Origin: an uncultured Pelagibacteraceae bacterium
GTDB taxonomy: Bacteria; Pseudomonadota; Alphaproteobacteria; Pelagibacterales; Pelagibacteraceae
Direction of reading: 5' to 3'
NCBI GenBank assembly: GCA_902588625.1
Contig: CACIPU010000001.1
Span: forward strand, 41,886 to 105,885
Length of the DNA stretch: 64,000 nucleotides
The position numbers were made by a program, and so were the translations under genes. Shown here piece after piece: positions 329-60,727 of this stretch. Numbering within the stretch: the stretch's first letter is position 1; every line of letters starts with the position of its first letter. The notes beneath the pieces are model-generated. The model made no database searches, was not told the DNA's origin, and saw nothing but the letters and a program-made list of their open reading frames with translations.

Positions 329-356
329 TTGAATAGTCTACTTTTTCGATTATAAT
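329..356 (+). promoter_or_regulatory. Sigma-70 type promoter for the 16-codon ORF
   Basis: TTGAAT at 329-334 and a perfect TATAAT at 351-356 are separated by 16 bases. The predicted transcript would start near base 363 and have a leader of about 35 bases before the ATG at 398. This is one of the best promoter matches in the window. Confidence 0.65.
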
Positions 357-397
357 GAAATTTATTGATTCTAAACTTTAACAAAAGGAGGCAAATT

Positions 398-448
398 ATG
401 ATCTGGGTCGCAGCAGCAGTTGTAGTAGTATGGTACATGAATAAATAG
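398..448 (+). CDS. 16-residue hydrophobic micro-protein
   Basis: The ORF encodes MIWVAAAVVVVWYMNK and then TAG. An eight-base perfect Shine-Dalgarno (AAAGGAGG, ending at 391) sits six bases before the ATG, and a near-consensus promoter lies upstream. Few starts in this window have such a ribosome site. The peptide is nearly all aliphatic or aromatic with a short charged tail (NK), enough for one short membrane-spanning or membrane-inserted helix. Its stop abuts the stop of the convergent peptidase gene. I do not know this peptide. The signals support expression; the function is unknown. The alternative is a regulatory leader RNA that happens to contain an ORF. Confidence 0.6.
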   Translation: MIWVAAAVVVVWYMNK

Positions 449-1183
449 TTAACTAATTCTTTTTATTCTAAGTACATTTAAATTTGCAGTTTTATAAATT
501 CTGTCTATTGTATCTTTTATAGACATTATTATAGTTTTTTTTAAAGGACCATATGCGTGTATCAAACTCTTTTTAGAAAGAGCAATTGCAACATGTCCTT
601 TCCAAAAAATTAAATCATTTTTTCTAATATTTTCAATATTTACATTTTTTTTGAAAAACTTTATCTGGTCTTTTGTATCGCGAGGACAGTATTGATTGTT
701 GTAATTAAAAAACACCTGCACAAGACCAGAACAATCTATACCAGTAAAATGTTTTCCTCCCCATTTATATTTTACCCCTGAAAATTTTTTAATATCGTTG
801 AATACGTCTCGATTTCTAAAATTTATTTTTTTTAAATCTTTTTTTTGTATCCAAAATTTTTCAAATTTATAAAAACTAGATTTTTTTTTTACTACTTGAA
901 TCCTAGATCCAAAACTAAGTTTTGTATTAATTTTAAATTTTAGGTTAGGTTTAGAATATATTTTTGCAAACAATTTACTTACCTTATGAGTATTTTTTTT
1001 ATCTAAGAGAAAATTCTTTCTGATAATAAAACCTTTGTAATTATCCATATTATTTTTGATTTTAAGCCATTTTCCATTATTTTTTATAATTTTAAATGTA
1101 TCCCCGTATAAAATTTGAGTAACTACTTTTGAATTAAGATTTTTTTTTTTATATACGTTTATGAAAGATATATTGCTTTTCAC
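449..1183 (-). CDS. NlpC/P60 (C40) cysteine peptidase with N-terminal SH3 domains
   Basis: This 244-residue protein has two bacterial SH3-like segments (about residues 1-60 and 61-118) followed by an NlpC/P60 catalytic domain. The likely triad is Cys151 (in GIDCSGL), His197 (in GHVAI) and His209 (in LIHAYG). Family members cut gamma-D-Glu-DAP or related bonds in peptidoglycan peptides. There is no signal peptide, so it is probably cytoplasmic, as in the YkfC-type enzymes that process recycled murein peptides. The start is GTG at 1181-1183, overlapping the TGA of the upstream AmpG-like gene (GTGA), which indicates translational coupling. The link with AmpG supports a recycling role; exact specificity is inferred. 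Confidence 0.85.
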   Translation of the reverse strand: MKSNISFINVYKKKNLNSKVVTQILYGDTFKIIKNNGKWLKIKNNMDNYKGFIIRKNFLLDKKNTHKVSKLFAKIYSKPNLKFKINTKLSFGSRIQVVKKKSSFYKFEKFWIQKKDLKKINFRNRDVFNDIKKFSGVKYKWGGKHFTGIDCSGLVQVFFNYNNQYCPRDTKDQIKFFKKNVNIENIRKNDLIFWKGHVAIALSKKSLIHAYGPLKKTIIMSIKDTIDRIYKTANLNVLRIKRIS

Positions 1184-2550
1184 TGCAATTTAATTTTTTT
1201 TCTAATAAACCAAAGGCAAATTAATGAAGGTATTACCATTATAGCTGTTATTATAAAAAACGTTCCCCAATCACCATTTAGCCAATCAACGAGTGCACCA
1301 GAAGATGCAGCCAATGTAGTTCTTCCGGCTGTACCAATAGAAGCTAATAGTGCATATTGAGTAGCTGTATAAGTTCTATCAACTAGTAATGAAATAAAAG
1401 CAACAAATGCAACAGTAGCGAAAGCAGCGGCCATATCATCAAAAATTACTGCTATTGCAAAAAGCCATTCAGATTTACCTGACCATGCTAGAATTGAAAA
1501 TAAAATATTTGTCGACGCCATCAGTATTCCAGAAATGAACATAGCTTTAATAACACCTGAGCGAATAGCAAACAAACCCCCCAAAAGAGTAAATACAACT
1601 GTAGTTATCCAACCCAACCCTTTAGAGTAAAGAGCGATATCAGATTTTGAAAAACCAATTTCTTTATAAAATATTATTGACATTCTCCCAAGAAAGGCTT
1701 CTCCTATTTTAAAAAGAAAAACAAAACCAAGTATACCTAAAGCAATTTTAAAACCATTTTTTTTGAAAAAACTTAGTATTGGTCCAGCAATTGTGCCGCT
1801 AGCCCAAGCAATTGATTTAGTAGCCAAATTAGAAGAACCTAATTTTTGCTCAATCATTTTTTCAGTTTCTTTTTGAGACTCCTGTCTTTCGTTTAATTGC
1901 GGTTCATGAACAAACATTAAGCCAATGTTACAAGCAATCACAACAACTCCTAGTACTAAGAATGTAATCTGCCAATAGTTTTCAAAGCCAATATTCTGAA
2001 AGTATTCAGCAGCATTTAAAGCAATTACTCCTCCTAATTTATATCCTGTCCACCAACCAACGACAGCAATTGCTGCCCCTGCTTGCATTGATTTACCTTC
2101 ATTCTCACCTATCTGTTCAATTCTTAAAGCGTCTACAGTAATATCTTGAGTAGCTGATGCGATTGCTACTATCAAACCAATTGTGATTACCAAAGCTAAA
2201 TTTGTTACTGGATCTATTACACTCCAGCATATTAAACTTATCAGTATGGCGCTCTGCATCAATACAATCCAACTCCGACGGTGGCCAATTTTATTAGTTA
2301 GCAGTGGTATACGAATTCTATCTATTATCGGGGCCCACAAGTAATTAAACGCATATACTGCAAAAATTAAACCTGCCCATCCAATTGTACTTCTGCTTAA
2401 ACCATCTTCTTTTAACCACAAACTTAAACTGCTACCGATAATAACCCAAGGAAATCCACTTATGATTCCAAGCAAAAGAATTCTAGCCATTCTTTTTTCA
2501 AAATAAACAGCAAATGTTTCTGAAAGCGTTTGTTTTTTGTATATTTCCAT
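1180..2550 (-). CDS. ampG: AmpG-like MFS permease (muropeptide uptake family)
   Basis: This is a 456-residue membrane protein with about 12-14 hydrophobic segments and the AmpG/PAT branch pattern of the major facilitator superfamily. Visible signs are an N-terminal GISGFPWVIIGSSL segment, a WAPIIDR loop, and TQDITVDALRIE in the fourth or fifth helix. AmpG carries GlcNAc-anhydroMurNAc peptides from the periplasm into the cytoplasm. The following gene is a cytoplasmic NlpC/P60 peptidase that overlaps by four bases, which fits peptidoglycan recycling. Other PAT members carry acetyl-CoA or siderophore-like substrates, so the substrate is not proven. trkH lies 16 bases upstream on the same strand. 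Confidence 0.8.
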   Translation of the reverse strand: MEIYKKQTLSETFAVYFEKRMARILLLGIISGFPWVIIGSSLSLWLKEDGLSRSTIGWAGLIFAVYAFNYLWAPIIDRIRIPLLTNKIGHRRSWIVLMQSAILISLICWSVIDPVTNLALVITIGLIVAIASATQDITVDALRIEQIGENEGKSMQAGAAIAVVGWWTGYKLGGVIALNAAEYFQNIGFENYWQITFLVLGVVVIACNIGLMFVHEPQLNERQESQKETEKMIEQKLGSSNLATKSIAWASGTIAGPILSFFKKNGFKIALGILGFVFLFKIGEAFLGRMSIIFYKEIGFSKSDIALYSKGLGWITTVVFTLLGGLFAIRSGVIKAMFISGILMASTNILFSILAWSGKSEWLFAIAVIFDDMAAAFATVAFVAFISLLVDRTYTATQYALLASIGTAGRTTLAASSGALVDWLNGDWGTFFIITAIMVIPSLICLWFIRKKIKLQ

Positions 2551-58900: not shown

Positions 58901-60727
58901 ATGGACGAAGAAAATAATAATAACAAAATAGAAACAAAAGCAGCCGACTCCTCGTCAGGCAGCTATGTTCCACCTGCAGATAATATTCCTGCTAGTGAAA
59001 TTCCAGAGCAAGAATTGTATCATGCAAAAAGTTTTTGGACTCGTTGGGTGTTTTGCCAAGATGCTAAAGTAATTGGAGTTCAATACGCTTTAACAGCAAC
59101 AGCTGTTGGTTTAATAGGTTTAATTTTATCATGGGGAATGAGATTACAACTAGGTTTTCCTGAAACATTTTCTTTCTTAGGTCCAGCAACTTATTATCAA
59201 TCAGTTACTATGCATGGAATGATCATGGTCGTTTATTTGCTTACCGCATTATTTTTAGGAGGCTTTGGTAATTATTTAATTCCATTAATGGTTGGAGCAA
59301 GAGATATGGTTTTTCCTTACGTAAACATGGTTAGTTTTTGGATGTTTCTTGTTGCGGTTTTAGTATTAATTTCCAGTTTTTTTGTCCCTGGAGGGCCCAC
59401 AGGAGCCGGATGGACTTTGTATCCACCACAGGCAATTATGCCTGGCACCCCAGGTTCTGAAATGGGAATAGTTTTAATGCTAATTTCTTTATCACTTTTT
59501 GTAATTGGTTTTACAATGGGTGGTTTAAACTATGTAATTACAATTTTACAAGCACGAACTCGTGGTATGACACTAATGCGTATGCCCCTTACAATTTGGG
59601 GAATTTTTACTGCCACAGTTCTTGCCTTACTTGCTTTTCCAGCACTGTTCGTTGCTTGTATAATGATGACTTTAGATAATTTATTAGGAACAAGTTTTTT
59701 CATGCCGGAAATATTTACGATGGGTGAACAACTGGGAACATCTGGAGGAAGTCCAATCTTATTTCAACATTTATTTTGGTTTTTTGGTCATCCTGAAGTT
59801 TATATTGTAGCACTACCTGCCTTCGGAATAGTTTCAGACCTTATTTCGGTTCATGCAAGAAAAAATATATTTGGTTACAGAATGATGGTTTGGGCAATTG
59901 TAATTATAGGAGCTTTAAGTTTTGTAGTTTGGGCACACCATATGTATGTCAGTGGAATGAACCCATATTTTGGTTTCTTTTTTGCAACTACTACATTAAT
60001 TATTGCGGTACCTACCGCAATTAAAGTTTATAACTGGGTTCTCACTTTGTGGAGAGGGAATATACATCTTACAATTCCAATGCTTTTCTCTTTAGGTTTT
60101 ATTGTAACTTTTGTTAATGGAGGAATTACAGGATTGTTTCTTGGAAATGTAATTATAGATATTCCTTTATCTGATACTTATTTTGTTGTAGCGCATTTTC
60201 ACATGGTTATGGGAATAGCTCCACTTATGGTAATTTTTGGAGCCATCTATCATTGGTTCCCTTTAATTTCAGGAAGACATTTAAATCAGACTCTAGGAAA
60301 AATACACTTTTGGATATCTTTTGTAGGAGCTTATGCAATTTATTTCCCAATGCATTATTTAGGTTTCATAGGAGTGCCACGAAGATATTATGAAATGTAC
60401 GATAGTCCATATATGACAACAGGAGTTGGTTTAAATCAGTTTATCACAGTAGCAGCTTTGATTGTTGGTTTTACCCAAATTTTATTTTTGTACAACATTA
60501 TTCATAGCGCGTTTTATGGAGAAAAATCTGAAAAAAACCCATGGAAAGCAAACTCTCTAGAATGGCATACACCCGAGATGCCGCCAGAACATGGAAACTT
60601 TGGAAAAGAGTTACCAGTAGTTTATCGTTGGCCTTATGATTTTAGTGTACCTGGAATTGATAGAGAATATATTCCACAGCACGTTGCACCAAGTGAAGTT
60701 CCAACTGCAAAGGTTGAAAAAACGTGA
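58901..60727 (+). CDS. coxA: Cytochrome c oxidase subunit I
   Basis: This 608-residue protein is the haem-copper catalytic subunit. Ligands are visible: His105 and His434 (low-spin haem a), His432 (haem a3), and His297, His346, His347 (CuB), with the crosslinking Tyr301. Glu299 in GHPEVY and Asp135 mark an A1-type proton pump. The N-terminal 45 residues are a soluble extension rich in Glu, Asn and Pro, longer than in the mitochondrial type. AAGGAGA precedes the ATG. It overlaps the next gene by four bases (GTGA). Confidence 0.97.
   Translation: MDEENNNNKIETKAADSSSGSYVPPADNIPASEIPEQELYHAKSFWTRWVFCQDAKVIGVQYALTATAVGLIGLILSWGMRLQLGFPETFSFLGPATYYQSVTMHGMIMVVYLLTALFLGGFGNYLIPLMVGARDMVFPYVNMVSFWMFLVAVLVLISSFFVPGGPTGAGWTLYPPQAIMPGTPGSEMGIVLMLISLSLFVIGFTMGGLNYVITILQARTRGMTLMRMPLTIWGIFTATVLALLAFPALFVACIMMTLDNLLGTSFFMPEIFTMGEQLGTSGGSPILFQHLFWFFGHPEVYIVALPAFGIVSDLISVHARKNIFGYRMMVWAIVIIGALSFVVWAHHMYVSGMNPYFGFFFATTTLIIAVPTAIKVYNWVLTLWRGNIHLTIPMLFSLGFIVTFVNGGITGLFLGNVIIDIPLSDTYFVVAHFHMVMGIAPLMVIFGAIYHWFPLISGRHLNQTLGKIHFWISFVGAYAIYFPMHYLGFIGVPRRYYEMYDSPYMTTGVGLNQFITVAALIVGFTQILFLYNIIHSAFYGEKSEKNPWKANSLEWHTPEMPPEHGNFGKELPVVYRWPYDFSVPGIDREYIPQHVAPSEVPTAKVEKT

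Follow-up and report, generated by a model that had tools for sequence, protein, structure and literature searches.

The window analysed here is a stretch of 64,000 nucleotides (G000:C1:41886-105885) from a Pelagibacteraceae source genome of 989,831 bases and 78% completeness. Near its left edge a forward-strand microORF occupies positions 398-448, with its ATG at 398-400 and its TAG stop at 446-448, and encodes the peptide MIWVAAAVVVVWYMNK. Upstream on the same strand lie a -35-like TTGAAT (329-334), a TATAAT -10 box (351-356) after a spacer of 16 nt, the sequence TGATTCT (366-372), which contains a GANTC (CcrM) site, GATTC, at 367-371 and 10 nt 3' of the -10 box, and the Shine-Dalgarno (SD) sequence AAAGGAGG (384-391), separated from the ATG by a gap of six bases (392-397). 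Rechecked on the window sequence, the letters and coordinates of promoter, SD, gap and 16-codon ORF given in the initial annotation proved exact.

The microORF is flanked by two reverse-strand genes. The divergent one (2-280) is a 5' part cut by the window edge, and the whole gene (L133:10883-12166) encodes a 427-aa protein with MORN repeats (Pfam MORN, 1.4e-28). On the other side lies an SH3 and NlpC/P60 peptidoglycan hydrolase-type gene (449-1183), which is convergent with the microORF and whose stop abuts the microORF stop; beyond it lies an AmpG-family muropeptide MFS transporter gene (1180-2550, reverse strand; TIGR00901, 373.8 bits with a cut-off of 350). No same-strand gene follows the microORF in the window.

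The SD signals of long genes were surveyed in the 59 window ORFs of at least 120 aa, with the start of the longest ORF taken as the gene start. AGGA, GGAG and GAGG were absent 4-16 nt upstream in 54 of them and AGGAGG preceded none, in agreement with the initial statement that most long genes here have a weak SD or none, although the survey undercounts SDs because longest-ORF starts were used. The combination AGGAGG-N4-10-ATG occurs three times in the window against 1.13 expected, a number reached in 11 of 100 shuffles, and promoter-like sites in positions 1-1300 are fewer than in shuffles (4 against a mean of 9.2). Taken alone, the start signals of the window microORF are within chance, and it is raised above chance by its conservation in relatives. 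Folding against shuffled sequences (four folds made in all) indicated an unstructured mRNA of the window gene (z +1.4) with an open SD, which led to rejection of a conserved RNA structure as the unit at this place; the Rfam scan of the window returned tRNAs only.

Conservation of the frame and the wider peptide family

The NlpC/P60 gene was detected in 48 of 60 relatives. Among the same-genus (g1) loci with a 3' flank, 11 of 14 contain a convergent hydrophobic microORF at most 450 nt from NlpC/P60, and eight of these are close orthologues of the MIW/MVW/MLW...WYMNK or ...NQ type. In two of the remaining genomes, G001 and G005, a different gene occupies the microORF spot, and in the third, G017, a microORF is found about 2 kb off, behind tRNA-Ser. 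The outcome named beforehand as speaking against a gene, the same neighbours with the ORF absent or its frame broken, is set against these 11 of 14 loci where the microORF is kept, and inspection by eye of the same-genus NlpC/P60 loci revealed no case of a kept promoter with a broken frame.

The proposed comparison of synonymous and non-synonymous change was made on seven distinct orthologues, leaving out G013, which is identical to G012. Codon differences are biased to the third position, with 6, 4 and 13 of 15 columns variable at codon positions 1, 2 and 3, respectively. Three genomes (G019, G012, G009) encode one and the same peptide, any two of them differing in 4-5 synonymous codons, and NG86 estimates range over 0-0.32 for dN and 0.5-3.0 for dS (18 of 21 pairs giving a dS). 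A strict pattern matched 9 of the 23 genus genomes and gave no framed match in the other 374 genomes of the family, four matches outside the genus having been dropped since their lengths are not multiples of three. The same microORF is present on 7 named contigs of the species-genome collection (uncultured Pelagibacteraceae isolates AG-464, AG-404 and AG-414), which we take to be SAR11. At the level of sequence comparison the microORF at 398-448 is confirmed as a real conserved reading frame, and with this conservation and third-position bias the initial suggestion of an overlooked hydrophobic micro-gene is upheld; the idea of a single tiny gene is not, since the gene is one member of a family spread over four genera.

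This family was collected by looser searches into a table of 65 members from four Pelagibacteraceae genera, whose upstreams all differ (65) and which encode 51 different peptides in 60 different coding sequences. Of the 22 NlpC/P60 loci with flank in the sister genus g2, 18 have a MSG(W/L/F)EIL-type microORF, a count that includes one doubtful look-alike (G168); the loci of G090, G131, G068 and G156 have none. In the g2 groups of one length the variable columns at codon positions 1/2/3 are 4/7/15 of 17 and 6/6/17 of 18. The MSGWEIL-type pattern matched 47 of 397 Pelagibacteraceae genomes (genera g2, g4 and g6), and the reversed control pattern matched 0; for the table 30 places of these 47 genomes were used, G062 and G119 were added and 15 were left out, and a 22-aa MHW microORF was also excluded. 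The 51 peptides are 15-21 residues long with a mean GRAVY of 1.49 and without Lys or Arg in the first six residues, while Trp stands within the first five residues in 33, an aromatic residue within the last eight in 48, and Asn or Gln within the last three in 44. For the most divergent peptides, for example METALVLMVILIAYNTFN and MEILIMVLIVVALTK, family membership is likely rather than proven and is argued from length, composition and signals. SD strength does not count as independent evidence here, because most members outside the NlpC/P60 locus were found via an SD filter.

Several search routes were discarded. Ten peptides used as a protein profile recovered matches in 9 of 36 genomes but not in G016, itself a training member, and therefore DNA profiles (R1, R2) were used; these gave false matches near E 5e-4, so that a match was accepted if its E fell under about 1e-4 or if a hydrophobic ORF was in frame. 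A second profile match in the window (59864-59920) was rejected as lying inside a long open frame that reads by eye like cytochrome oxidase, and the loose pattern GGAG-ATG-TGG lacked specificity, matching in 54 of 60 genomes, in many of which the reversed pattern was about as frequent. Database searches of the family were made with relatives of 20-22 aa, the 16-aa peptides being below the minimum length of the tools: four such relatives gave nothing over cut-off in Pfam, NCBIfam and PHROGs, and one gave no match in PDB. Open-text literature on SAR11/Pelagibacter small proteins did not describe the family among the matches listed, and catalogues like AMPSphere (PMC10491242) may contain the peptides unnamed. 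For SAR11 strain HIMB5 at least three conserved intergenic sORFs with function not known are mentioned in Stav et al. 2019 (PMC6429828), which resemble the present family, as compared by description, in being conserved short ORFs in SAR11 intergenic DNA.

Other short frames were seen around these loci. In genus g2 a second microORF of MHWILLGIAIGLIFYLGDKYLF type (22-23 aa; L145:1431-1496, reverse strand; same place in L146-L165) is located directly 3' of NlpC/P60 on the same strand and is convergent with the MSG microORF where both occur; it had no Pfam, NCBIfam or strong PHROGs match. The 15-aa microORF MEILIMVLIVVALTK (L246:1439-1486, forward strand) lies just upstream of an MSG microORF. 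In four loci of other genera (L019, L021, L022, L027) the region 3' of NlpC/P60 shares a block AAGAACA...GACCGAATCA...TGTTCT, with an 11-codon ORF in three of them, and this block may belong to the promoter of the neighbouring helicase-like gene. The NlpC/P60 frames themselves are broken by many stops in L023 (G017) and L166 (G147).

Arrays behind tRNA-Ser and tmRNA ends

Members of the family are often multiplied: five microgenes are packed in 0.8 kb behind tRNA-Ser in G080 (L279:5212-5990), three copies occur in G072, twin copies in G003, and five copies around the MORN gene plus one elsewhere in G011. The arrays of G011 (L125:7551-10315) and G080 consist of divergent micro-genes, several of which are followed by GC-rich hairpins, and a clear terminator-like stem closes the last microgene of the G080 array.

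Between tRNA-Ser(GGA) and NlpC/P60 the DNA differs from genome to genome, and the copy number of microgenes varies as well. In G000 the tRNA-Ser is followed by its own 3' end twice more (25-mer with 0-1 mismatch), and such repeated ends can be read as the mark of stepwise island accretion. Left of the window in the same genome, three tRNA-Ser 3' end copies (L133:3619, 4690 and 5341) have signal-peptide-like protein genes between them. Other family members adjoin pieces of tmRNA, none of which reaches the gathering score of Rfam alpha_tmRNA, and in L280, L281, L234, L242, L243 and L221 tmRNA-end pieces are repeated along variable regions with micro-genes beside or near them. The start of 13 of the 65 members lies less than 300 nt from a tRNA-Ser 3' end or a tmRNA-end 25-mer. 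Such an end is present in the examined flanking DNA of 38 members, 37 of which are on the same strand as the end, and is absent there for the other 27.

GANTC sites and the GcrA/CcrM machinery

The description of the promoter as near-perfect was correct in its letters, but TTGAAT is not conserved; what the orthologues share is a TATAAT-like hexamer (in most of them TATAAT or one mismatch) and then GANTC 4-11 nt on. Across the family 34 of 65 members have GANTC at -45..-12, compared with 22 of 174 controls; the controls are ORFs of 120 aa or longer, taken from the window and 33 loci, that have no less than 70 nt of intergenic DNA upstream. The Fisher value of 9e-10 for this comparison overstates because the 65 members are related. 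TATAAT with at most one mismatch stands 3-11 nt before 29 of 36 GANTC sites against 24% in shuffled upstreams. The middle base of these 36 sites varies (T16, A15, G3, C2), both orientations occur, and 23 have the YGAKTCG form on either strand, which points to a methylase site and not to one fixed operator word. YGAKTCG is the GcrA motif of Haakonsen 2015 as given in PMC7987155, where sites either side of the promoter are stated to be able to act; the window site TGATTCT is one base off the full motif.

The distribution of the site differs between groups. GANTC within 70 nt is present in 10 of 10 single g1 copies beside NlpC/P60 or the MORN gene, in 14 of 18 at the g2 NlpC/P60 locus, and in 6 of 6 of the tmRNA-side type, where it is located inside the SD, while it is found in 3 of 9 g6 members and in 0 of 9 of the g4 group with GGAGGTAATTAA-type starts. 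Within g1 it is lacking at this distance in the second G003 copy, in G017 and in five of six G011 copies, and overall 31 of the 65 members have no GANTC at -45..-12. The window as a whole (1-64000) is poor in GANTC, with 115 sites where 147 are expected and with 115 or more in 99 of 100 shuffles, and such scarcity is reported for genomes with CcrM in PMC3973325. The window GATTC, 10 nt after TATAAT, would fit a GANTC within about 40 nt of a sigma-70 start, with the start site at its putative position.

GcrA (PF07750) scores above the Pfam cut-off in 32 of 40 genomes, one of them the window genome (L291:765-1277), and the G006 protein matches the solved GcrA at 4e-25. PF01555 methylases are found in 33 of 40 genomes (32 over cut-off), with matches of 362-366 aa in 15 of 23 genus genomes, and a CcrM orthologue exists in the genus, one G017 protein matching CcrMI 6pbd at 5e-140; CcrM was not found in the 78% complete window genome G000. 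Two papers report CcrM homologues in SAR11 (PMC3973325) and methylated GANTC in Pelagibacter linked to the cell cycle (PMC9516812). The arrangement is like the Caulobacter GcrA/CcrM regulon in the GANTC beside a sigma-70 -10 box, the presence of GcrA and CcrM in the genus and the many YGAKTCG sites, and differs in that here we infer the regulation, the target is a micropeptide, the window site is one base off and some members have no site.

Possible function of the micropeptides and rival explanations

On balance we lean towards the reading that the conserved frame at 398-448 encodes a 16-residue hydrophobic peptide predicted to insert into the inner membrane, its synthesis being likely timed in the cell cycle by GcrA at CcrM-methylated GANTC. 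It builds on what was observed: the frame is conserved, GANTC follows the -10 box, the window genome encodes GcrA, and CcrM is encoded in the genus. A sigma-70 promoter would transcribe the microgene from a start near GANTC with a short leader, the meeting of GcrA with methylated DNA would give a burst of transcription, and the unstructured leader together with the strong SD would make translation efficient. With its Ala/Val core flanked by Trp/Tyr belts and its polar Asn-Lys end, the peptide may then be anchored so that it spans the bilayer fully or half-way, though a hydrophobic core of this length is short for spanning it, which speaks against this reading. Its role, the least certain part, might be that of a small subunit or membrane modulator, not a killer, produced in a burst during envelope growth beside the muropeptide-recycling pair of NlpC/P60 and AmpG. 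The arrays behind tRNA-Ser and tmRNA ends would reflect copying and spread of the paralogues.

The main rival, which we hold to be unlikely though worth serious attention, is a type I toxin-like gene, a mini-Ibs which, once released from an RNA antitoxin, would depolarise the membrane, and which would serve islands as an addiction or growth-control gene. The length, the hydrophobicity, the tandem copies (G003, G080, G072, G011) and the island ends resemble known type I toxins; sequence and hydropathy fit a predicted small hydrophobic membrane peptide, and the E. coli Ibs toxins (IbsC/SibC) are likewise single hydrophobic peptides of 15-30 residues in multiple, sometimes tandem copies. According to PMC8309996, IbsC has 19 residues and is still toxic at 15 with ten hydrophobic. 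In the folded mRNA of paralogue G011_1 (z -4.4) a downstream CUCCU pairs with the SD, and with the stops abutting, the NlpC/P60 mRNA could overlap the 3' end of the micro-mRNA in the window. The window mRNA, however, is unstructured and its strong SD is open, the promoter carries GANTC, and the family peptides differ from such toxins in having Trp/Tyr at both ends and an Asn/Gln-rich C-end. Antisense promoters, moreover, were not enriched in a consensus scan of 51 members, which could miss an unusual promoter (10/51 against 29% of shuffles at 9 of 12 positions, 3/51 against 4% at 10 of 12), and an exact TATAAT occurs in 2/51 antisense against 17/51 sense.

That the peptides are island-borne exclusion factors, blocking entry of rival phages or islands and diversified by this contest, appears rather improbable: the nearness of 13 of the 65 members to tRNA-Ser/tmRNA ends, the common strand of 37 of 38 and the varying copy number agree with it, but two family patterns found no member in IMG/VR viral contigs, and the copy beside NlpC/P60 is fixed at one spot through the genus, unlike a contest gene. 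Still less weight is given to a leader or dual-function RNA, in which the RNA or the act of translation matters and not the peptide; the very short frame and the hairpins after several array copies could be so explained, against which stand the third-position bias, the convergent NlpC/P60 gene in place of a same-strand downstream gene and the purely tRNA content of the Rfam scan of the window. A chance ORF behind a chance promoter, to which the start signals alone would be no obstacle, is refuted by the conservation of frame, place and start signals, and we regard it as barely credible.

Membrane proteins with a single hydrophobic segment, long unannotated, are known in KdpF, CydX, MgtS and TisB, which have about 29 residues or more; the present family shares the single segment, is shorter and fits no Pfam or NCBIfam family. 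The synthetic WALP16 has 16 residues with an Ala-rich core between Trp belts, and the window peptide is like it in length, core and belts, differing as a natural gene product with a Val-rich core and a polar C-end. Extending the reading of a GcrA-timed membrane peptide to all members, we tentatively raise the possibility, which we consider a good deal less secure, of a spreading, previously unrecorded SAR11 family of membrane micropeptides of 15-21 residues, natural WALP-like helices among the shortest conserved proteins, which CcrM/GcrA GANTC promoters would switch on once in each cell cycle and which would have multiplied through accretion behind tRNA-Ser/tmRNA.

The new element is the GANTC just 3' of the -10 box. 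Few cell types in the sea are more abundant than SAR11 bacteria, whose very small genomes nevertheless keep and multiply a gene of 16-20 codons that is passed over by standard annotation. Should it be translated, its products would rank with the shortest conserved membrane proteins, and the placement of GANTC offers a direct route to testing for cell-cycle control in this lineage, in which few regulators are known.
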